A DNA stretch of 64,000 nucleotides from Pseudobutyrivibrio sp. (GTDB lineage Bacteria; Bacillota; Clostridia; Lachnospirales; Lachnospiraceae), in NCBI GenBank assembly GCA_024697025.1, contig JAILGH010000038.1, positions 1 through 64,000 on the forward strand, written 5' to 3'. Every line of letters begins with the position of its first letter. The stretch's first letter is position 1. A program made the translations under genes and the position numbers. The notes below the pieces were generated by a model. That model did no database searches. It was not told the origin of the DNA and saw only the letters and a program-made list of their open reading frames with translations. This document shows positions 564 to 48,716 of this stretch, in pieces.

Positions 564-2324
564 ATGAGCAAATGGATTATGCAAAGAAAAGGCGCTGATT
601 TCGTGGGGCTTGGCAAGCAGCTGGGGGTAGACCCTGTGGTTGTCAGGCTTATGGTTAATCGCGGCCTTAGTACATATGAGGAAATGAAGGAGTATTTGCA
701 TCCTACACTTGATTCCTTTCCTGACCCACATTTTTTTGCTGATATGGATAAGGCTTGCCAGCTGTTGAAGGAGGCTGTCGAAAGCGGAACGCCAATTCGT
801 GTGGTAGGAGACTATGATGTAGATGGGATTATGTCTACCTACATTTTGGTAAATGCCATTAGAAAGGTAGGAGGCAAGGTGGATTATGCAGTGCCCCATA
901 GAATGGTGGACGGTTATGGAATCAATCCTGACATGGTGCAGCAGGCTTTTGATGAGGGAATAAGATTTATTATTACCTGTGACAATGGCATTGCTGCGGC
1001 AGAGGCTGTGAATTTGGCTAAGAGCCTTGGCATGATATTTGTGATTACAGATCATCACGAGGTGCCTTTTGCTGAGGAGGATGGTAACAAGGTTCAACAA
1101 CTGCCAAATGCTGATGCGGTGGTGGATCCAAAGCGTCAGGACTGCCAGTATCCTTTTAAGGGGATTTGTGGTGCACAAGTTGCTTGGAAGGTTGCTGAAG
1201 TTTTGTATCAAGTTATGGGGATTTCATCTGATGAAGCGATGGAGTTTTTGGAGTTTGCAGCCATTGCTACGGTGTGTGATGTTATGGAGCTTAAGGATGA
1301 GAATCGTGCCACTGTTTTCCATGGAACCAAGGCAATTGAATGTACTAACAACGTTGGATTAAATGCTTTGCTTGCTAGGACTGAGCTAAAGGGCAAGCCT
1401 ATTAGTTGTTATCATTTGGGATTTATTATAGGACCATGTCTAAATGCCAGTGGACGTCTTGATACAGCTGAAAGAGCCATTCAGCTTTTGATGGAGGAGG
1501 ACAACGCCAAGGCTTTGGCTGCGGCTAACGAGCTAGTGGAGCTTAACAATCAGCGCAAGACCATGACCCAAAATGGCATTGACAAGGCTATAGAATTAAT
1601 AGAGAGTAGCGACTTGATTCAGGATAGGGTTTTGGTGGTATACATTCCAGAATTGCATGAAAGCTTGGCTGGTATTGTTGCTGGCAGACTTCGGGAAAAG
1701 TACACCAAGCCTGTGCTTGTGATAACTAAGGCTGAGGATGGAGCAAAGGGTAGTGGACGTTCAATCCCAGCTTACAATATGTTTGAGGAGCTTTCGGCGG
1801 TAAAGGATATTTTTACCAAATTTGGTGGACATCCAATGGCAGCAGGCGTATCTCTGCCAGTAGATAGAGTTGATGAGCTGCGTCAGAGATTAAATGCCAA
1901 TTGCAAATTGACAGAGGATGATATGCAGGAGGTTATCAAGATTGATTGTGATATGCCTTTATCGTACATATCTGAGGAGTTGATAGATCAGCTGGATTTG
2001 TTGGCACCGTTTGGCACAGGCAATTCCAAACCACTTTTTGCCCTAAAGGATATCAAGATTAATCGACTTTCTTACATGGGAAAGGAAGGCCAGTATCTCA
2101 GGCTAAACTTGGAAACAGAGACTGGTGGTAGTATGACAGGTCTCATGTTTAGAGGGGTTGAAGAGTTGGAAAATAGAATGATTGAAAAATATGATGAAAG
2201 CACTTGGCAAACCCTTTTTTCTACAGGAGTGCAGGATGCCAGAATAGACATTATTTACGAGCCTTCAGTTAACGAATTCAGAGGCAATCGCAGTCTTCAG
2301 GTTATAATAGAAAATTTCAAGTAG
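564..2324 (+). CDS. recJ: Single-stranded-DNA-specific 5'-3' exonuclease RecJ
   Basis: DHH-family phosphoesterase of 586 residues acting in DNA recombination and repair in the cytoplasm. The DHH domain shows the metal-binding motif DYDVDG near residue 83 and ITDHHE near 162. GPCLNASGRLDTAERA lies before the connecting helix, and the DHHA1 domain carries GGHPMAAG near residue 421. The C-terminal part fits the OB-like domain of short RecJ forms. ATG 564 follows an A/G-rich ribosome site (AGAAAGAGAG). It is the first protein gene after the structured region 1-430 and is not followed by apt/relA as in Bacillus. Identification is firm. Confidence 0.93.
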   Translation: MSKWIMQRKGADFVGLGKQLGVDPVVVRLMVNRGLSTYEEMKEYLHPTLDSFPDPHFFADMDKACQLLKEAVESGTPIRVVGDYDVDGIMSTYILVNAIRKVGGKVDYAVPHRMVDGYGINPDMVQQAFDEGIRFIITCDNGIAAAEAVNLAKSLGMIFVITDHHEVPFAEEDGNKVQQLPNADAVVDPKRQDCQYPFKGICGAQVAWKVAEVLYQVMGISSDEAMEFLEFAAIATVCDVMELKDENRATVFHGTKAIECTNNVGLNALLARTELKGKPISCYHLGFIIGPCLNASGRLDTAERAIQLLMEEDNAKALAAANELVELNNQRKTMTQNGIDKAIELIESSDLIQDRVLVVYIPELHESLAGIVAGRLREKYTKPVLVITKAEDGAKGSGRSIPAYNMFEELSAVKDIFTKFGGHPMAAGVSLPVDRVDELRQRLNANCKLTEDDMQEVIKIDCDMPLSYISEELIDQLDLLAPFGTGNSKPLFALKDIKINRLSYMGKEGQYLRLNLETETGGSMTGLMFRGVEELENRMIEKYDESTWQTLFSTGVQDARIDIIYEPSVNEFRGNRSLQVIIENFK

Positions 2325-2392
2325 AACCCTTCTGGATTTATTGAATGTGGTTCCTAAATCAATTACAATTAGATGAAAAAGGAGGGGGCAAA

Positions 2393-3337
2393 ATGGGTAA
2401 TCAACAAGTATATACATTCAATTCAAAGGATGGTCATTCGGTGATTCATTGCAGAAAGTGGCTTCCAGAGCAGGAGCCAGTGGCTGTTATTCAGTTAGTT
2501 CATGGAATGGTAGAATACATTGAAAGGTACGATGATTTTGCCCAGTTTCTTGCTTCAAAGGGATATGTGGTTGTAGGACACGACCATATCGGTCATGGTC
2601 ATTCCGTGGCCAGTGAGGATGAGCTTGGTGTTATGACAGGAGAGCATCCATCAGATTTTATGGTGGATGATATCTACACACACTATTTCATAACAAGAGA
2701 GGCCTATCCAAAACTTCCATATTTTATTTTAGGACATTCAATGGGTTCTTACTTACTCAGGAAGTTTTTATCAGTCAAAGCAGATTATATTGAAGATATT
2801 TCTGGTGCCGTAATCATGGGTACAGGTCAAGAGAGCGCAGCTACATGTAGCTTTGGCCTTGGTATGGTGGCCGTTATTTCTGCATTCAAGGGTAAGGATT
2901 ATCGTAGCACTCTTATTAGAAAGTTGACCTACAGCAAGCCTTACAAGGGATATGATTGCTACGGTAAGGATTTGGCCAATTCTTGGTTATCTAAAAACAT
3001 AGCAAACATTCAAAAGTATTATAACGACCCACTGTGTACATACCTTTTTACAGTCAACGCGTACAAGGGCCTTATTGAAGCTACCAAGTATGCTTGTTCT
3101 AAGGAAAGTGTAGTAAAGATGCGCAAGGACATGCCACTTCTTGTAGTCTCTGGAGATGCAGACCCTGTAGGCAACCTTGGAAAAGGAACCACAGCTGCAG
3201 CAGAGATGTTGAAGGCTGGTGGGGTTGAGGATGTCACTTTAAAGCTTTACCCCGGTGACAGACATGAGATTTTAAACGAATTAGACAAAGACAAAGTATT
3301 TGAAGATATATATGCGTGGCTAGAGAGCCACAAGTAA
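2393..3337 (+). CDS. Alpha/beta hydrolase, monoacylglycerol-lipase-like
   Basis: Serine hydrolase of about 314 residues of the Hydrolase_4/S33 type. Visible landmarks are the strand motif VIQLVHGMVEYIERYD with the oxyanion region, the nucleophile elbow GHSMGS, an Asp in SGDADPVG and a C-terminal GDRHEI carrying the likely catalytic His. The substrate is probably a lysophospholipid or acylglycerol; the exact specificity is inferred. An in-frame ATG exists at 2345, but ATG 2393 has a perfect GGAGGGGG site a few bases upstream and is preferred. There is no signal peptide, so the protein is probably cytoplasmic. It is followed 24 bases later by a membrane protein gene. Confidence 0.8.
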   Translation: MGNQQVYTFNSKDGHSVIHCRKWLPEQEPVAVIQLVHGMVEYIERYDDFAQFLASKGYVVVGHDHIGHGHSVASEDELGVMTGEHPSDFMVDDIYTHYFITREAYPKLPYFILGHSMGSYLLRKFLSVKADYIEDISGAVIMGTGQESAATCSFGLGMVAVISAFKGKDYRSTLIRKLTYSKPYKGYDCYGKDLANSWLSKNIANIQKYYNDPLCTYLFTVNAYKGLIEATKYACSKESVVKMRKDMPLLVVSGDADPVGNLGKGTTAAAEMLKAGGVEDVTLKLYPGDRHEILNELDKDKVFEDIYAWLESHK

Positions 3338-3361
3338 TGCAACTCTAGGATAGGAGCTAGG

Positions 3362-4405
3362 ATGGATTATTTAGATCACTTGATCACCAGATCAATACGT
3401 ACATATTACAAAAATAGGCTTTATGCTCCTATCATATTTCTTACAATCCTGCTTGTGATTACAGCTTTTACGCCGGTAGGCTATTTGATTTTTCCTAAGA
3501 ATTATCAGGAGGACGAGATTCATCTTCACGATATGTATACTTCTAGCGAGACATATGGCAGATACAATCTCAACAATCTCTATTTTACTGGATACACTAG
3601 CAAATGGTTGGATCAGAATCGTGGGTATTTTTATTACACCATGATTGATTCCCAGTGCGTAATTGTCCTTCTTTCGCCAAACACTTGCGAGCAAGGCGTG
3701 CCAAGCATTGACCACATTACCATTAAGGGGCAGATTATTGACGAGTCCTTTGCCACTAGAGAATTGTTAACTAAGCTGGCTAAGGATTTAAATTGGAACG
3801 AGGATGGTATCATGTCAACGGTTTCAAGCTACACTATTTCTGAGCCGGATGCCACTGGAATACCTGCCAAGACGTTCGAATTATTTTACTGGGCATTTGC
3901 TATTTACAGTTTAGTCATTATAATAGTCTACTGTATTTATATTTCATTTCCAGTTATGTCTCTTCCTGTTCAAAAGACAAGGGCATATGGTAAGCCATCA
4001 GAAATCCTTGCAGAGGCAGAGGAAGAGCTGGCTACATTGCCACAGCTTGCTACTGAGGATATGTTTATTACAGAGCACTATTTTATAGAGACTAGTAGCT
4101 ATGGTGTTGCCATTGTGCCAATTGATGCCATTATTTGGATTTACAAGTATTCAACTATGCACAAGTTTTTATGGCATCATTTTTCCATTACATATACCTT
4201 GCATATTACTGCAGGTAAGCGTCACTACATAAAGTGCCCTAAGAACATCAAGAGCGATATTGACGGTATTATGGACTATTTAGCAGAGGCTAATCACGAT
4301 ATTTTAGTGGGATTCTCCGAAGCAAATCGACTTAAGGTTGAGGAGATTCAAAACGATTTTGACATTATTAGAAAGATAACAAGCTTTTTATCTAAGAGGG
4401 TTTAA
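3362..4405 (+). CDS. Uncharacterised two-span membrane protein
   Basis: A 347-residue protein I cannot assign. One hydrophobic segment lies at about residues 20-45 and a second at about 180-200 (AIYSLVIIIVYCIYISF), leaving an external loop of about 130 residues and a cytoplasmic C-terminal domain of about 150. The C-terminal domain resembles the PH-like domains of several Firmicutes membrane proteins in its short hydrophobic strands, but this is only an impression. ATG 3362 follows TAGGAGC. The stop is one base before the next start region, so it is very probably co-transcribed and coupled with the methyltransferase gene. Confidence 0.6.
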   Translation: MDYLDHLITRSIRTYYKNRLYAPIIFLTILLVITAFTPVGYLIFPKNYQEDEIHLHDMYTSSETYGRYNLNNLYFTGYTSKWLDQNRGYFYYTMIDSQCVIVLLSPNTCEQGVPSIDHITIKGQIIDESFATRELLTKLAKDLNWNEDGIMSTVSSYTISEPDATGIPAKTFELFYWAFAIYSLVIIIVYCIYISFPVMSLPVQKTRAYGKPSEILAEAEEELATLPQLATEDMFITEHYFIETSSYGVAIVPIDAIIWIYKYSTMHKFLWHHFSITYTLHITAGKRHYIKCPKNIKSDIDGIMDYLAEANHDILVGFSEANRLKVEEIQNDFDIIRKITSFLSKRV

Positions 4406-4406
4406 G

Positions 4407-5150
4407 ATGGAAGCATACACCAGCTTTGCCGCGGTATACGATATGTATATGGATAATATTCCATACGATACCTGGGCAAAGAACATAAAGGATTTATTTG
4501 AAAAATATAATATGCCCATGGAGATTGTATGCGATTTGGGCTGTGGTACAGGTCAGATGACAAGGCGCCTAAAGGCCTTTGGATACGATATGATTGGCAT
4601 AGATGTCTCTTGTGATATGCTTATGGAGGCTCAGGCAAATGAGGATTCTGAAGGAATCCTTTATCTATGTCAGGACATGCGTGAGTTTGAGCTTTATGGT
4701 ACAGTAGGAGCAATAGTTAGCGTCTGTGATAGTATCAATTATCTAGCAGATACCGATGAGCTATTGCAGGTCTGCAAGCTTGCAAATACCTACTTGGATC
4801 CAAAGGGGCTTTTTATTTTTGACATTAAGACAGAGTATTTCTATGAGAAGCTAGGTGATAGCACCATAGCTGAAAACAGAAGTGAAGGCAGCTTCATTTG
4901 GGAAAATGAATATGATAGTAGTACAAGGGACAATAGTTATTTCTTGACTATCTATGCTGAGAATGAGGAGGGCACCTTTGATAGATACGAGGAGGAGCAC
5001 ATTCAGCATGCCTTTACAATGGAAGAGGTTAAAAAAGCAATCGAGGACAGTGGCCTTAAGCTTTTAGATATACTGGACGTGGCGACTATGTCTTCTCCAC
5101 AGTCAGACAGTGAAAGATTATATTTTATAGCAAGAGAAGTTAGAAAGTGA
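4407..5150 (+). CDS. Class I SAM-dependent methyltransferase
   Basis: A 247-residue methyltransferase with the glycine-rich AdoMet motif VCDLGCGTGQMTRRL near residue 43, an acidic residue ending strand 2 (MIGIDVS), motif II-like CQDMREF and a strand-4 region with VSVCDSINYL. This is the Methyltransf_11/25 group; the substrate is unknown. It starts two bases after the preceding membrane-protein gene and lies 13 bases before hslO, so the three look like one transcription unit. Confidence 0.8.
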   Translation: MEAYTSFAAVYDMYMDNIPYDTWAKNIKDLFEKYNMPMEIVCDLGCGTGQMTRRLKAFGYDMIGIDVSCDMLMEAQANEDSEGILYLCQDMREFELYGTVGAIVSVCDSINYLADTDELLQVCKLANTYLDPKGLFIFDIKTEYFYEKLGDSTIAENRSEGSFIWENEYDSSTRDNSYFLTIYAENEEGTFDRYEEEHIQHAFTMEEVKKAIEDSGLKLLDILDVATMSSPQSDSERLYFIAREVRK

Positions 5151-5163
5151 GGAACAACAATTA

Positions 5164-6033
5164 ATGAGTGATTATATAGTTAGGGCAACAGCAGCAAACG
5201 ATTCAATTAGAGCCTTTGCAATTACAAGCAAGGATTTAGTTGAAGAGGCAAGGGGAAGACACAACACTTCTCCAGTAGTTACAGCTGCGCTTGGTCGTAT
5301 GCTTTCAGCAGGCTCTATGATGGGTGTTATGCTAAAGGGCGATGACGATTTAGTTACTTTGCAGATACAGGGTAGTGGTCCAATGAAGGGAATTACTGTT
5401 ACATCCAACAGCAAGGGTGAGGTTAAGGGATTTCCTAATGTGGCAGTTGTTGATTTGCCACCAAAGAATGGCAAGCTTGATGTAGGCGGCGCCATTGATT
5501 TAGGTATCATGCGTGTCATTAAGGACATGGGCCTTAAGGAGCCTTACGTTGGTACAGTCGAGCTTCAGACAGGTGAAATCGCAGAGGATTTAACTTATTA
5601 CTATGCAGTTTCAGAGCAGATTCCATCTACAGTTGGTCTTGGTGTTTTGATGAACAAGGACAACACAGTAAACTGTTCGGGTGGCTTTATAGTACAGCTT
5701 ATGCCATTTACACCAGAGGATGTTATCTCACAAATCGAGGAGAATCTTAAAACTCTTCCTTCAGTTACAGATATGCTTTCAAGTGGCAAGACACCGGAGC
5801 AGATGTTAGAGACAGTTCTTGCAGGCTTGGATTTACAGTTTATGGAGACATATCCAGTGAAATATCAGTGTGATTGTTCAAGAGATAGAGTTGTTAAGAG
5901 TCTTGCATCTCTTGGCAAGGAGGATATGGACGACATTATCGCAGATGGAAAGCCTGTTGAGGTTAAGTGTCAGTTCTGTAATGAGGCTTATGAATTTACA
6001 ATAGATGAGCTTAAAAAGCTTCGAAAACACTAA
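5164..6033 (+). CDS. hslO: Redox-regulated chaperone Hsp33
   Basis: A 289-residue Hsp33. The N-terminal holdase domain is followed by the C-terminal redox zinc switch, seen as CDC in YQCDCSRDRV and CQFC in VKCQFCNEAYEF, the four cysteines that bind zinc when reduced. Oxidation of these cysteines activates the chaperone in the cytoplasm under oxidative and unfolding stress. The start has GAGGAA 10 bases upstream. Length and both Cys pairs match the family. Confidence 0.95.
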   Translation: MSDYIVRATAANDSIRAFAITSKDLVEEARGRHNTSPVVTAALGRMLSAGSMMGVMLKGDDDLVTLQIQGSGPMKGITVTSNSKGEVKGFPNVAVVDLPPKNGKLDVGGAIDLGIMRVIKDMGLKEPYVGTVELQTGEIAEDLTYYYAVSEQIPSTVGLGVLMNKDNTVNCSGGFIVQLMPFTPEDVISQIEENLKTLPSVTDMLSSGKTPEQMLETVLAGLDLQFMETYPVKYQCDCSRDRVVKSLASLGKEDMDDIIADGKPVEVKCQFCNEAYEFTIDELKKLRKH

Positions 6034-6081
6034 TAAATATCCGTTATGTCAAATATTAGCGGTATTTAGGCAAATCTTTAG

Positions 6082-6111
6082 TTGATTTTGTTTGCCGTTT
6101 TCCTGTAAACT
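6082..6111 (+). promoter_or_regulatory. Possible promoter of the L,D-transpeptidase gene
   Basis: TTGATT at 6082-6087 and TAAACT at 6106-6111 with an 18-base spacer, about 45 bases before the start at 6158. Fair match only. Confidence 0.3.
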
Positions 6112-6157
6112 ATCAAACGGAGAAATTTGATTTTAATAATATAAAGGGATTATTCAG

Positions 6158-7888
6158 ATGAGTGTTGTTAAGAAAGCGAAAGCTCGAAAAGTTGTCAAGA
6201 ACAAGCTTGACATGAAAAAAATTGCAATAGTTGCGGGCGCAATTTTATTAGTTTATTTAGTTGGAAGTATTTATTTTAGAAATCATTTCTACATTCGAAG
6301 CACTGTAAACGGAGTGGGTGCTTCATTTAAGACTGCAGAGGCAGTATATGACAAGATTAATGATAGTGCCAATGTTTACACAATATCATTTATAAATGCA
6401 GATGGTGATGTGGTAAATGAGGTTAGTTCAGATACATTAGGAGTTGAAGTAAATTACGATGTAGACCAGGTTCAGGAGTTGCTTGATAAGCAGACTGGAT
6501 TCAACTGGGTTGGACGTATTTTCTCTCCAATTGAGTACTACACCAAGACTGGCAATTCTTACGACGAGGCAAAGGTTAAGGAAGTAGCCGGTAGTCTTGA
6601 TTTTAGCATGCACAAAGCTACTGTAGATTCACAGGATGCATACATCAATTTCAATGGTAGCGAGTTTGAAATTGTTGACGAGGTTTATGGTGACACTATT
6701 GATCAGCAGGGCGTTGAGGATGCCATTATCTACGCTGTAGAGAACCTCAAGACTGAGATTAATATTTCTGATGGTACATGCTACCATAAGCCACATATTA
6801 CTTCAGACAATCCTAAAATGCAGGCTGCATTGGAGACTCTCAACAAATACATGGGCACACAGATTCACTATGATTTGGGAGAGGGCATCACTGAGGAGAT
6901 TCCTGCAGAGACTAAGGCAACATGGTTTACTTGGGATGATGACTTCAATGTTAGCTTCAACAATGAGGCCATTGGTGAGTTCGTAGATTCTATGTGTGAT
7001 AAGTACAACACATACGGAAAGAAGAGAGAGTTTACAGCTACATCAGGAGAGCAAGTTACTATTCCTGGTGGTTCATACGGATGGAAGATTTCCCACGATG
7101 GAGAAGTTAATCAAATTATCGCAGACCTTACAGCTGGCGAGGATGTTACAAGAGACTTTGTTTATCACTCATTTGTAGAGGGTAAGTATTGTACAGCTGC
7201 TAGTCATGGCGAGCATGATTACGCAGGCTCTTATGTAGAGGTTAACCTTACAGAGCAGCATGTATATGTATATAAGGATGGTGCGATGGTATTTGATACA
7301 CCATGTGTTACTGGAAAGATTTCTAATAATCATGGTACTCATCCAGGTATATTCCCAATTGCTTTCAAGCAAAGCCCAGCCAAGTTAAGAGGCGAGGATT
7401 ACGTTTCTAAAGTTCGCTATTGGATGCCATTTAATGATGGTCAGGGATTGCATGATGCAGATTGGAGACATGAGTTTGGCGGTACACTTTACAAGACTGG
7501 CGGTAGCCACGGTTGTGTAAATCTGCCTGTTAAGTCAGCTGAAACTATTTATGGAATAGTAGAAGCAGGCTGGCCAGTTATCGTATTCTATACTGGCAGC
7601 AGAGCCGCAGAGGATGCAGCCCTTGCTAGTCAGACTCCAGAGGCTAAGGTAATTCAGCGAATAAATGAAATCGGTGAAGTTACTATTGAAAAAGAGGCAG
7701 CTATTGCTGGAGCACGTCAGGCGTTCAACGCACTTACAGAGGAGCAGAAGGCTTCAGTTACAAATTATCAGGTATTGTGTGATGCTGAGGTTGCTGTTGT
7801 AACGCTTAAGCAGCAGGCAGGAATTCCTGCACCAGAAGTTCCAGTAGATGGTGCTACTCCAGCTCCAGAAGCTATTCAACAAGAGTAA
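6158..7888 (+). CDS. L,D-transpeptidase (YkuD) with N-terminal anchor
   Basis: A 576-residue cell-wall cross-linking enzyme. A basic N-terminus and one membrane span (about residues 20-40) leave the rest outside. Two putative peptidoglycan-binding repeats (PG_binding_4 type) fill about 60-340, and the YkuD domain ends in the catalytic motif SHGCVNLP with Cys at residue 453 and His at 451. The last 90 residues hold an alpha-helical module of the kind repeated in clostridial surface proteins (AIAGARQAFNALTEEQKASV) and a Pro/Ala/Glu tail. It catalyses 3-3 peptidoglycan links or attaches proteins to the wall. The family assignment is firm; the role of the tail is inferred. Confidence 0.9.
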   Translation: MSVVKKAKARKVVKNKLDMKKIAIVAGAILLVYLVGSIYFRNHFYIRSTVNGVGASFKTAEAVYDKINDSANVYTISFINADGDVVNEVSSDTLGVEVNYDVDQVQELLDKQTGFNWVGRIFSPIEYYTKTGNSYDEAKVKEVAGSLDFSMHKATVDSQDAYINFNGSEFEIVDEVYGDTIDQQGVEDAIIYAVENLKTEINISDGTCYHKPHITSDNPKMQAALETLNKYMGTQIHYDLGEGITEEIPAETKATWFTWDDDFNVSFNNEAIGEFVDSMCDKYNTYGKKREFTATSGEQVTIPGGSYGWKISHDGEVNQIIADLTAGEDVTRDFVYHSFVEGKYCTAASHGEHDYAGSYVEVNLTEQHVYVYKDGAMVFDTPCVTGKISNNHGTHPGIFPIAFKQSPAKLRGEDYVSKVRYWMPFNDGQGLHDADWRHEFGGTLYKTGGSHGCVNLPVKSAETIYGIVEAGWPVIVFYTGSRAAEDAALASQTPEAKVIQRINEIGEVTIEKEAAIAGARQAFNALTEEQKASVTNYQVLCDAEVAVVTLKQQAGIPAPEVPVDGATPAPEAIQQE

Positions 7889-34460: not shown

Positions 34461-34572
34461 GGTCTAAGGGGCCGGGTTTGGTCCAGGGGGACGGGGTTAG
34501 TGGTCCATAATAGTTCATTATGGACCACTAACCCCGTCCCCCTGGACCAAACCCGGCCCCTAGGCCTTTTTT
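34461..34572. repeat. Long palindromic repeat, copy 1, acting as terminator
   Basis: An almost perfect hairpin of about 50 bp: 34461-34511 pairs with 34517-34566 around loop AGTTC, followed by TTTTTT. The central part (GGACGGGGTTAGTGGTCC...) is the same as in the copy at 40122-40213, whose loop is the reverse complement, so the two copies are inverted relative to each other. It lies between the convergent thiN and GH43 genes. Such palindromes are typical of REP-like elements of Firmicutes that are moved by a Y1 transposase; none is encoded here. Confidence 0.85.
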
Positions 34573-40117: not shown

Positions 40118-40121
40118 AAAT

Positions 40122-40213
40122 GGTCAAGGGGTGGTCCAAGGGGACGGGGTTAGTGGTCCATAATGAACTATTATGGACCACTAACCCCGTCCCCTTGGAC
40201 CACCCCTTGACTA
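40122..40213. repeat. Long palindromic repeat, copy 2
   Basis: A hairpin of about 42 bp: 40122-40164 pairs with 40170-40212 around loop GAACT. The inner stem matches copy 1 at 34461-34566 with one changed pair (CCAAGG for CCAGGG), and the loop is the reverse complement. The outer parts of the stem differ between copies. It lies between two convergent genes and probably terminates both. Confidence 0.85.
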
Positions 40214-45340: not shown

Positions 45341-46888
45341 ATGAACCAAGAAAAAGTCATTGTTATCGACTTTGGCGGCCAGTACAATCAGCTTGTTGCC
45401 CGCCGTGTCAGAGAATGTAACGTCTATTGTGAGATTTATTCTTATCGCACCCCAATCGATCAGATTAAAGAAATGAATCCTAAGGGAATTATCCTTACAG
45501 GTGGACCTAATTCTTGTTATGAGGATGGTGCCCCTACCTATACTAAGGAATTATTTGAACTTGGTATTCCAGTTCTTGGCCTTTGCTACGGTGCACAGCT
45601 TATGATGCATCTTCTTGGAGGCAAGGTTGAAAAGGCTCCAGTTCGTGAGTACGGCAAGACCGAGACATTTATCGATGGCGCTGTAGATACACTTTTTAAA
45701 GGCGTAGATAAGTCTACTATTGTATGGATGAGTCACTTTGACTATATAAGCAAGGTCGCTCCTAATTTTGAAATAATTGCGCACACTGCAGATTGCCCAG
45801 TTGCGGCAGCAGCTTGTGAGGCTAAAAAGCTTTACGCAATCCAGTTCCACCCAGAGGTGCTTCACACAGTTCAGGGTAAGGACATTCTTCAAAACTTTGT
45901 TAGAAACATTTGTAATACAGCTGGTAGCTGGCGCATGGATTCATTTGTGCAGCAGACTATAGGTGAAATTCGCGATAGAGTCGGTGATGGCAAGGTTTTA
46001 CTTGCTCTTTCTGGAGGTGTTGATTCATCTGTTCTTGCAGCCCTTCTTGCAAAGGCAATTGGCAAGCAGCTTACCTGCGTATTTGTAGATCATGGTCTTC
46101 TTCGTAAAAACGAAGGGGCTGAGGTTGAAGGGGTATTTGGCCCATCAGGTTCATTTGATATAAACTTTGTTCGTGTAAATGCAGCTGACCGTTACTATGC
46201 AAAGCTTGCTGGCGTTGAGGAGCCAGAGGCAAAGCGCAAGATTATCGGTGAGGAGTTTATCCGAGTATTCGAGGAAGAGGCTAAAAAGATTGGCACAGTT
46301 GACTTCTTGGCACAGGGTACTATCTATCCAGACGTTGTTGAGTCTGGACTTGGTGGAGAGTCAGTAGTAATAAAGTCTCACCACAACGTAGGTGGTCTTC
46401 CTGATTACGTTGATTTCAAGGAAATCATCGAGCCACTTCGCAACCTATTTAAGGACGAGGTTCGTAAGGTCGGTCTTGAGCTTGGCCTTCCAGAATACCT
46501 TGTATTCCGTCAGCCATTCCCAGGCCCAGGCCTTGGAATCCGTATCATTGGCGAGGTTACAGCAGAAAAGGTTCGCATAGTTCAGGACGCAGATTACATC
46601 TATCGTACAGAGCTTGCTGAGGCTGGGCTTTCAAAGCTTCCAGATCAGTATTTTGCAGCTCTTTCAAACATGCGCTCAGTTGGTGTTATGGGTGACGAGC
46701 GTACTTACGACTACGCAGTAGTCCTTCGTGCAGTTGAGACCATCGACTTCATGACAGCTGAGGCAACAGAGATTCCATTTGAAGTCCTCCAACGCGTAAT
46801 GAGCCGAATCATCAACGAGGTTAAGGGCGTCAACCGCGTAATGTACGACTTGACTTCTAAGCCACCTGGAACAGTGGAACTGGAATAG
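45341..46888 (+). CDS. guaA: GMP synthase (glutamine-hydrolysing)
   Basis: 515 residues. The class I glutamine amidotransferase domain (about 1-190) has the nucleophile in GLCYGAQ and the His/Glu in QFHPEV. The ATP-pyrophosphatase domain carries the P-loop SGGVDSSV, and the C-terminal dimerisation domain ends PPGTVELE. It converts XMP to GMP. AAGGAG precedes the ATG; I see no guanine riboswitch in the 140-base leader. Confidence 0.97.
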
Positions 46889-47083: not shown

Positions 47084-47367
47084 ATAGTATTTTTGATGTA
47101 TTTGGTGTTGGTAGGTTTAATGACTGGATTATAAGCATATTATAGAGGTTCATAGGTAAGATATTATGAGTGTATTTCATGTATTTTAAAAGGCAGGATA
47201 GTGTGTTTAGGAGACTATTGGGATGAGGATAATAATGGGGCGGTTGACATTTTTTCTATGGGTTGTTATAGTGTTTAAACGATTTAATATATTTATTTTT
47301 TATCTTTTTGTGGCAGAGTTTTTCATTTCGCCACGTTTTCCATTTTATATATACGAATAATTGATGG
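47084..47367. other. A/T-rich stretch without gene
   Basis: About 280 bases of A/T-rich sequence with no credible reading frame, no strong hairpin and no recognised motif. It lies between the guaA terminator and the TTACGGGTAA array. Confidence 0.6.
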
Positions 47368-47678
47368 TTTACGGGTAATATCGTTTTATTGATTAAAAAA
47401 AACGTAAAAGAAAATGTGCTTGAATTTTGTTTACGGGCCATATTAACGATTATGTTATTTCACCCGTAAGAGTCAAAGGTGGATTACGGGTAACAAGGAG
47501 AAAACTATAGGTTTACCCGTAAATGAAACATTTTGATGGATGAATAGAGGGCTTATATTGTATTTTAATGCGAAAATTACGGGTGTATCGCAATGTTTTA
47601 CTCATTTAACCTGTATAGAATTTTTTTAAAAAATTTTTATACGGGTAAACTGGGGAATAAGCTAACAGCAACCCGTAA
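47368..47678. repeat. Array of eight TTACGGGTAA-type motifs
   Basis: Plus-orientation copies begin at 47368, 47431 (ACGGGC variant), 47484, 47577 and 47640. Minus-orientation copies (ACCCGTAA) begin at 47462, 47512 and 47671. Core-to-core distances are 62, 29, 24, 29, 64, 62 and 30 bases, mostly near one or two times 30. TTAC-GG-GTAA is itself a dyad, as expected for a dimer-binding site. Several pairs can form hairpins, for instance 47462-47469 with 47484-47491. The array could be an operator cluster, an iteron-like or parS-like site, or a nuclease target region. Confidence 0.8.
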
Positions 47679-47915: not shown

Positions 47916-48716
47916 TTGATTAATTACAGGAATAAATTAGAAGCACAAATAGTAGAATTGGATTCCCTTATTGTAAGGGGAGAAAAAGATATTGAGAAGT
48001 ATAAAAATCTATCTAATTATGGGGTGAATATATCAAGGAGCCATGGAAATATCCAATATTATCTAATAGATAGAGAAACAGGAAAGAAGAAATATGCCGG
48101 AAAGAAGCAAATTAGGATTGTGCAAAAAATAGTTCAAAGAGACTATGATTTGGCTGTTAATAAAATTATTAAATCTTTGAGAGATTGTTTGGCAGACTTC
48201 GTTCGTAATTTTGATATTGAAGAGATTAATAATGTGTATGAAGGAAGCAGCGAAGGCAGAAAAAAGTTTATTTCGCCTATAATTGAACCAGATGAATTAT
48301 TCGTCCAAAGATGGCTGGAAGAGAATGCAGATAATCAGAATCCATTTCCAGAAAAAGGTAATTACTATACCTCACAGGGGACGTTTGTTAGATCCAAGTC
48401 GGAGAGAATAATTGCTGAACTGCTTGATAAGTATAACGTTCCTTATCGATATGAGCCACAATTGATTTTAAACAATAGACATATTGTGTATCCAGATTTT
48501 ATGGTGCTAAATGTTAGGAAAAGAGAAACGATTTACTGGGAGCATCTGGGATTAGTAAGCGATATTGATTATTCTAAAAGAAATTTCGAAAAGATTAATG
48601 ACTATGAACGTGCGGGTATATTGCTTGGAAAGAATTTAATAATTTCAATGGAGTCTGAAGAGCGTGCTTTGGATGTGAAAATGATTGAGAAGAAGATAAA
48701 GCAGTTTTGTTTATGA
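47916..48716 (+). CDS. Possible PD-(D/E)XK nuclease-like protein
   Basis: 266 residues, no family name recalled. Residues 1-105 are helical with a coiled-coil start. From 155 the pattern FVRSKSERIIAELL (Glu163), VYPDFMVL (Asp194) and IYWEHLG (Glu209, His210) matches the E-PD-ExK order of restriction-like nucleases, though the usual Lys is replaced by His. The start is TTG 47916 with GGAGG eight bases upstream; no in-frame ATG fits as well. It lies just after the TTACGGGTAA array. Its function in defence, repair or mobile DNA is open. Confidence 0.6.
   Translation: MINYRNKLEAQIVELDSLIVRGEKDIEKYKNLSNYGVNISRSHGNIQYYLIDRETGKKKYAGKKQIRIVQKIVQRDYDLAVNKIIKSLRDCLADFVRNFDIEEINNVYEGSSEGRKKFISPIIEPDELFVQRWLEENADNQNPFPEKGNYYTSQGTFVRSKSERIIAELLDKYNVPYRYEPQLILNNRHIVYPDFMVLNVRKRETIYWEHLGLVSDIDYSKRNFEKINDYERAGILLGKNLIISMESEERALDVKMIEKKIKQFCL

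Follow-up and report, generated by a model that had tools for sequence, protein, structure and literature searches.

A helically phased array of short asymmetric sites beside a nuclease-like gene of Pseudobutyrivibrio, a very likely binding array with dispersed relatives

Homing endonucleases are nucleases that spread their own DNA by cutting and repair, and type III toxin-antitoxin systems combine a ToxN-like ribonuclease with RNA repeats. REPs are described as palindromes of 20–40 bp with a GTAG or CGTC tag (PMC3733652), and a role in establishing REPs and BIMEs in the genome has been proposed for RAYTs, the repeats and the enzyme coevolving (PMC2817692). The TIGR-Tas systems have a Nop-domain protein and an array that is processed into 36-nt guide RNAs (PMC12045711). 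The locus reported here resembles each of these systems in part and differs from each. It lies in a window of 64,000 nucleotides, the whole stretch of DNA analysed, from a Pseudobutyrivibrio sp. (contig JAILGH010000038.1), and consists of eight short sites upstream of a gene for a nuclease-like protein. An initial annotation of the window had remarked that no known feature type accounts for such an array, and within the searches made here none was found that fits either. Among the top-ranked results of literature searches on arrays or repeats with a nuclease, in a collection without subscription papers and preprints, there were no such arrays with this protein.

The array and the protein encoded beside it

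The features of the locus are collected in Table 1. The positions of the sites confirmed the eight motifs in both orientations that had been annotated, with successive start-to-start spacings of 62, 29, 24, 29, 64, 62 and 30 bp. The motif had been described as a 10-base near-palindrome; three of the eight sites are exact TTACGGGTAA, but the invariant part of the sites is the asymmetric (T)TACGGG(T), so that this description is only partly right and the orientation of each site matters.

Table 1. Features of the array locus, in positions of the window
Feature	Position	Strand	Basis
guaA, upstream neighbour (GMP synthase)	45341..46888	+	sequence reading
Promoter-like TTGACA-17-TATAGT, upstream of array	47244..47272	+	sequence pattern
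Palindrome of the leader, GTGGC...GCCAC (TGGC-N15-GCCA), after the promoter-like site and ahead of the array	47310..47334	+	sequence pattern
Array of eight asymmetric TACGGG-core sites, both orientations	47368..47678	.	site positions; phased spacing family-wide
Site 1	47369-47378	+	
Site 2	47431-47440	+	
Site 3	47460-47469	-	
Site 4	47484-47493	+	
Site 5	47513-47522	-	
Site 6	47577-47586	+	
Site 7	47639-47648	+	
Site 8	47669-47678	-	
Convergent pair (+ then -), repeated unit, 29 bp from start to start, total length 39 bp	47431..47469	.	
Convergent pair TTACGGGT-N23-ACCCGTAA	47484..47522	.	pair pattern search
Convergent pair (+ then -), 40 bp end to end	47639..47678	.	site positions
Gene for 266-aa protein, TTG start, GGAGG upstream	47916..48716	+	ORF, profile searches, alignment, predicted structure

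The 1000 bp that precede the gene contain ACCCGTA 7 times, against 0.05 expected, and among 211 overlapping 900-bp segments of the window the array had the top two-orientation repeat score. Beyond the three segments overlapping the array, four others passed log10 P < -7, all at two long hairpins, and the threshold for calling arrays was reached within the window by the array and these two hairpins alone. Two long near-perfect palindromes, at 34466-34561 and 40121-40213, are intergenic, have GGGGACGGGGTTAGTGGTCCA in common and look like REP- or MITE-type hairpin repeats. Exact TTACGGGTAA occurs four times in the host genome (110 contigs, 91% complete), three of them in the array, and the paired pattern TTACGGGT-N10..40-ACCCGTAA was found in the array only. 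A coarse search for TTACSSGTAA with one mismatch gave 6 matches against 3.9 expected, and 19 of 100 shuffles reached as many; this count alone is not significant, and the significance is supplied by the clustering of the sites and their common core. The array matched no Rfam family at gathering score, with one sub-threshold chance match at E 0.49. Elsewhere in the window, positions 21-180 matched the TwoAYGGAY RNA (Rfam RF01731) above its gathering score.

The adjoining protein is predicted to contain an N-terminal helix, a three-stranded sheet and a further helix, followed by a C-terminal PD-(D/E)XK-type nuclease domain. The model of the N-terminal fragment (pLDDT 86.9) placed strands at residues 8-15, 18-25 and 31-33 ahead of a long helix; the full-length model had a mean pLDDT of 52.8, with low confidence in the nuclease part. 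Residues 136-264 matched the PADLOC model PDC-S68 with E 1.3e-28, aligning onto residues 1088-1218 of 1221, and residues 114-242 matched the PADLOC model named PD-DEXK with E 3.6e-6. In an alignment of 42 members R159, S160, K161, S162, E163, E180, D194, E209 and H210 were invariant and P193 nearly so, giving the acidic pattern E...PD...E of PD-(D/E)XK enzymes; fold searches were without a match. Those with the full-length model returned mostly coiled-coil look-alikes, and those with the N-terminal fragment gave no significant match, lambda integrase ranking 7th and 20th in Foldseek (E 0.55 and 1.3). In integrases, the arm-type DNA-binding domain is a three-stranded sheet that reads short sites. 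The predicted N-terminal strands and helix resemble it, but a profile comparison of the N-terminal part with three integrases was not significant (P 0.012, probability 3.6%).

The protein had no Pfam match above cut-off (one weak match to DUF790) and no NCBIfam match, and PDB sequence searches returned nothing meaningful, one giving no hit and another three at E 0.16 to 1.3. A Pfam scan of 42 members found no common family, and among 25 of the 36 weak families, those listed, none occurred in more than two members. The protein matched no replication-initiator, ParB, Nop or other RNA-guide family, and no type III toxin-antitoxin family in Pfam or NCBIfam; the CN hydrolase and the methyltransferase encoded downstream matched no replication or ParB family. 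This bacterial gene family is apparently undescribed and, for the members scanned, unnamed in Pfam and NCBIfam.

Motifs and spacings across the protein family

Genes of this family are common in the bacterial family Lachnospiraceae. Matches were found in 28 of the 29 genomes of the genus, with up to 11 per genome including some fragments, and by protein search in 96 of 299 genomes of the bacterial family, with at most 7 per genome. Across the phylum 12 of 398 genomes gave a match; five were full-length, the window's own included, and all came from the same bacterial family, the other seven beginning at residue 138 or later. Seven of 72,556 plasmid records (Lachnospiraceae share uncounted) had a match, none covering 80% of the protein, and phage records gave three matches, one of them nearly full-length. 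Nine relatives on viral contigs were similar in the nuclease domain only; pairs at the exact spacing of 23 were present there in 6 and 4 stretches, one pair each, and the viral contigs searched for pairs held no arrays. The 82 family proteins formed 52 clusters at 60% identity, and stops were present inside at least seven genus matches, among the matches listed.

Ninety members were compared, comprising the window, 29 loci from the family-wide search and 60 genus loci hand-picked from the top of the match list, roughly by score and with some near contig ends omitted. An upstream ORF was found for 86 of them, with gene names read from sequence rather than by family search. The family gene lay downstream of guaA in 10 of the 86 and downstream of comEC in 13, each group including loci of other genera. 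A single fixed genomic place for the gene was considered and rejected, as many places were found. Directly downstream of comEC, a DNA uptake gene, were L023, L028, L113, L115, L116, L118-L124 and L126, from several genera.

An array was called when a motif occurred in both orientations within 900 bp upstream with log10 P < -7, and by this measure arrays were present at 72 of the 90 loci. Of the 18 loci below threshold, inspected by eye, 7 seem to have arrays that are weaker or in one orientation only, 3 have tandem repeats of another kind and 8 show no upstream array, the entire clade of L081, L085 and L090 among them. Locus L009, one of these 8, has a CATCCGCA array with an 86-bp period downstream of the gene. 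Short tandem repeats with units of 14 to 21 bp take the place of phased pairs upstream of L020, L029 and L030. Seven loci exceeded the threshold in a downstream control (a count without a denominator), three of which were true second arrays (L012, L120, L126).

The motif varied by subfamily, from TTACGGGT in the window and L067 to TACGGTCA, ATGCATCC, TTACGGAA, AGATAGTA, CCACGTAG, GACACGC and many more. The initial annotation had asked whether TTACSSGTAA clusters always accompany homologues of the gene; arrays accompany most of those examined, but the exact window motif was found, among the members examined, only at L067 (57% identity). Exact TTACGGGTAA was accordingly rejected as a family-wide motif, other members carrying other motifs. 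Sharing was judged by a simple score on the 72 array loci: the two proteins of a pair had the same motif in 46 of 63 cases when their identity was at least 60%, in 17 of 387 at 45-60%, in 7 of 1085 at 35-45% and in 4 of 545 at 25-35%, and in 17 of 476 pairs without an identity value, which include members left out of the identity table. The motif tracked the clades of the protein tree; L002, from another genus, and L075 had the same motif and formed a two-member group with support 84. Two members within one genome shared a motif in 0 of 61 pairs, compared with 79 of 1370 between genomes of the genus; at the latter rate some 3.5 of the 61 pairs should share one, so the lack of sharing is no more than suggestive. 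These comparisons show that each subfamily examined has its own short asymmetric motif and that the motif coevolves with the protein.

The spacing of the sites was examined family-wide. Same-orientation next-site spacings (180) peaked at 52-53, 62-64, 73-74, 84-86, 93-96, 104-106, 115 and 126 bp, and a period scan of them gave a Rayleigh R of 0.76 at 10.45-10.5 bp, compared with a null maximum of 0.30. Reduced to a single locus for each cluster at 45% identity (26 loci with 60 spacings), the data gave an R of 0.74. Convergent pairs were searched in 29 genomes, allowing 26-56 bp. Pairs of TTACGGGT measured 38-40 bp in 22 of 22 forward-strand matches, to which the window pair at 47431..47469, being one base off the pattern, does not belong; among the matches listed, ATGCATCC pairs measured 37-39 bp in 70 of 75 and AGATAGTA pairs exactly 33 bp in 72 of 75. 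In the arrays read, the gaps between pairs shift by whole helical turns. These distances show the basic unit to be a convergent pair of fixed length, with pairs whole helical turns apart and the sites facing one side of B-DNA. Spacings at multiples of 10.5 bp place the sites on one helix face of double-stranded DNA, as the initial annotation had proposed for the window. This points to double-stranded DNA bound from one face as the explanation of the phasing, for which RNA has no need.

In the window the promoter-like site lies upstream, so that the array sits between promoter and gene. Sequence of 120 bp or more ahead of the first site was available for 69 array loci; exact TTGACA-17-TATATT was present there on the gene strand in 24, all within the genus, and in 0 of 69 on the opposite strand and 0 of 1380 shuffles. 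A palindrome TGGC-N5 or N15-GCCA followed the promoter-like site in 13 of 54 genus loci, and the leader pattern occurred at 18 places in 29 genomes, at least 16 of them ahead of a family gene.

Dispersed arrays and their copying

Pairs of TTACGGGT were found in 5 of the 29 genomes of the genus, G339, G307 and G311 among them, pairs of ATGCATCC in 21 and pairs of AGATAGTA in 11. Reversed patterns gave no match in any of the 29 genomes for TTACGGGT and for ATGCATCC, and for AGATAGTA four forward-strand matches in three genomes (2, 1 and 1). Genome G303 has five TTACGGGT arrays, one at the gene and four away from it, with no family gene in the 8-9 kb read around those four; outside G303, orphan status was judged against the family genes among the matches listed. 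In relatives, arrays with the window motif also lie at a distance from the family genes. In G306 AGATAGTA pairs flank the gene and lie at 7 places away from it, and eight ATGCATCC regions of 2-4 kb each (L289-L296) contained no family gene. All five genomes in which the comEC-locus nuclease goes with AGATAGTA have AGATAGTA pairs, those of G313 all at its own gene; of the six in which it goes with another motif, one has a single such pair. There are contrary cases, with ATGCATCC pairs in genomes without an identified nuclease of that group, for example G339 (81% complete) and G304 (95% complete), and G319 with a nuclease of the ATGCATCC group and no exact ATGCATCC pair. The host genome of the window has no orphan array of its own motif, so the case for dispersal rests on the relatives.

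The G303 orphan arrays at iscU and chvE (names read from sequence) aligned over their full length with z 7.5 under a motif-keeping null and are copies of one array. The window array was related to the G303 gene array with z 7.8, and 6 of the 15 TTACGGGT array pairs compared exceeded z 3. The chvE array is missing at the same site in G320, G307 and G308, the next gene in G320 and G307 being 99% identical to that of G303; at this insertion, the sole one examined, neither a target-site duplication nor clean ends were found. A G303 orphan-array intergenic site carries other long inverted-repeat inserts in L281 (G314) and L282 (G311), and for this reason looks like a hot spot.

Between the iscU and chvE copies the motif footprints are 98% identical and the sequence outside them 77%. 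Excess motif conservation was significant in 11 of 16 array pairs and absent in 5, and by this comparison orphan arrays conserve their motifs while their spacers drift. G303 also has two ATGCATCCC pairs alongside its TTACGGGT arrays, perhaps relics of an older code. In L218, L220, L223, L224 and L225 orphan arrays contain ATGCATCCC next to TTACGGGT, which looks like an older code giving way to another. Arrays flank the gene on both sides in L185, L186 and L187. In L184 (G153) positions 1750-6750 hold guaA, an orphan TACGGA array, accessory genes and a second array with the nuclease gene, and the two arrays bracket what looks like acquired cargo.

Explanations of the array and comparison with known systems

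The window array is very likely the binding array of the adjoining nuclease-like protein. This was one of the roles offered in the initial annotation, as a binding or cleavage array; binding is strongly favoured by the arrays at 72 of 90 loci, by a motif that follows the clade and by the helical spacing, whereas cutting is a step that we infer. The protein would bind its own motif, with a dimer on each inverted pair held through the N-terminal sheet domain and two nuclease domains lying over the spacer. A filled array between promoter and gene would repress the protein's own gene, and an operator function, also annotated, may form part of the system because the array sits between a promoter-like site and its gene, though not as an explanation standing alone. 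Array DNA may be nicked or cut by the conserved catalytic residues and, repaired from other copies, arrays would grow, become homogeneous, come to stand on both sides of the gene and reach new places. The best supported part of this is that a sequence-specific nuclease-like protein coats the phased array that belongs to it, each pair probably being occupied by a dimer; spreading and homogenisation by nicking or cutting and repair would most likely come in addition. Taken whole, a cognate double-stranded DNA-binding array of the 47916-48716 protein together with autorepression and spread by cutting, the explanation is given about an even chance.

The protein might instead serve the host as a regulator or chromosome organiser, bound to the arrays in a structural or regulatory role and with its nuclease domain rarely used or used for repair, the arrays being kept for their benefit to the host. 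The motifs of orphan arrays are kept in place while spacers drift, members recur at comEC and guaA, and the sites are mostly intergenic in the orphan arrays read and stand behind a promoter-like site at family genes, all of which would suit a host function. Motif turnover between relatives and up to 11 matches per genome are, however, unusual for housekeeping, as are the stops inside at least seven of the matches listed and the presence or absence of arrays between close relatives, and the catalytic residues are invariant; we regard this explanation as somewhat unlikely. A nuclease stored for defence or addiction, with the arrays as a DNA sponge that keeps it inactive until chromosome damage, takeover by a phage or the loss of the locus sets it free to cut DNA, would be in keeping with the relation of its catalytic domain to the PADLOC candidate PDC-S68, with several members per genome that had no motif in common in the 61 within-genome pairs and with the patchy occurrence in the bacterial family. 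It is nevertheless the less probable of these two, and clearly unlikely: the viral contigs and plasmid records searched gave no full-length member and phage records one that is nearly so, no known defence gene was recognised by eye in ten regions read, and storage does not by itself explain helical phasing and array copying.

By its position the array would lie in a transcribed leader, and the RNA fold of its inverted arms scores better than that of shuffled sequence (z -4.65), as would be expected if its transcript gave hairpins or guide RNAs in the manner of type III toxin-antitoxin or TIGR systems. Such a role is very unlikely, as the 10.5-bp phasing of sites and of the gaps between pairs would be superfluous for RNA, orphan arrays far from the gene keep their motifs, and neither the protein nor the array matched a Nop, RNA-guide or, at gathering score, Rfam family. 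Related arrays still have alignable spacers whose differences are substitutions, whereas acquired guides would have been replaced outright. Because spacers drift in this way between related arrays, the idea that the unique spacers in L033 and in the window serve as guides was rejected. Short repeated sites at regular spacing beside a gene also recall a plasmid iteron, parS or simple multi-operator unlinked to the nuclease, and an iteron- or parS-like site had been suggested in the initial annotation. This reading is not supported and is highly improbable, given a motif that coevolves with a nuclease-like family, three scanned proteins without a replication or ParB match, a chromosomal housekeeping setting as read from sequence and plasmid records without a full-length member.

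The binding array with its proposed spread by cutting would form part of an undescribed Lachnospiraceae system of many parallel enzymes per genome with private motifs, phased nucleoprotein combs at the gene and at dispersed arrays, selfish spread of these arrays by cutting and fast motif turnover, a description whose chance we put slightly below even. Such a large natural set of small proteins, each with its own DNA code, would allow the recognition rules of the domain to be read from evolution. If cutting is true, a second, unrelated enzyme class would be linked with dispersed intergenic repeats, and one could test whether a nuclease is enough by itself to spread repeats.

The protein has a nuclease domain related to that of PDC-S68, whose models have about 1200 residues with the domain at the end, unlike the 266-residue protein; to our knowledge no array accompanies PDC-S68. 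As with homing endonucleases, cutting followed by repair could let the nuclease spread its own DNA, but here multi-site arrays disperse rather than the gene alone, and no insertion into a coding target was seen. ParB-parS and plasmid iteron systems have a ParB or initiator beside their sites, whereas the neighbours scanned here matched neither and guaA lies upstream. Type III toxin-antitoxin systems differ in their ToxN-like ribonuclease, which the protein does not resemble by family match. With TIGR-Tas the locus shares a single effector gene beside a short-repeat array that varies by locus (PMC12045711). It differs in a protein without a Nop match, in longer spacers that drift rather than guide, in orphan arrays and in double-strand phasing.

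The closest likeness in way of life is to REP/RAYT, in which a chromosomal enzyme has its cognate repeats, short and alternating in orientation, both beside it and scattered in the genome and coevolves with them (PMC2817692). Coevolution and dispersal were both found here, the dispersal in relatives and none in the window's own genome. One difference is the enzyme, RAYT being an HUH tyrosine transposase and the present protein having a predicted PD-(D/E)XK-type nuclease domain. The repeats also differ, as they are short asymmetric double-stranded motifs in phased convergent pairs of fixed length, rather than the tagged palindromes described for REPs (PMC3733652). A further difference is that family matches reach 11 per genome, with motifs that differ between those compared. 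The system shares the way of life of REP/RAYT and departs from it in enzyme and repeat structure, and from TIGR-Tas in the Nop domain; that its repeats are a REP/BIME-like family whose enzyme is a restriction-type nuclease and not a transposase is a reading evenly balanced between right and wrong.
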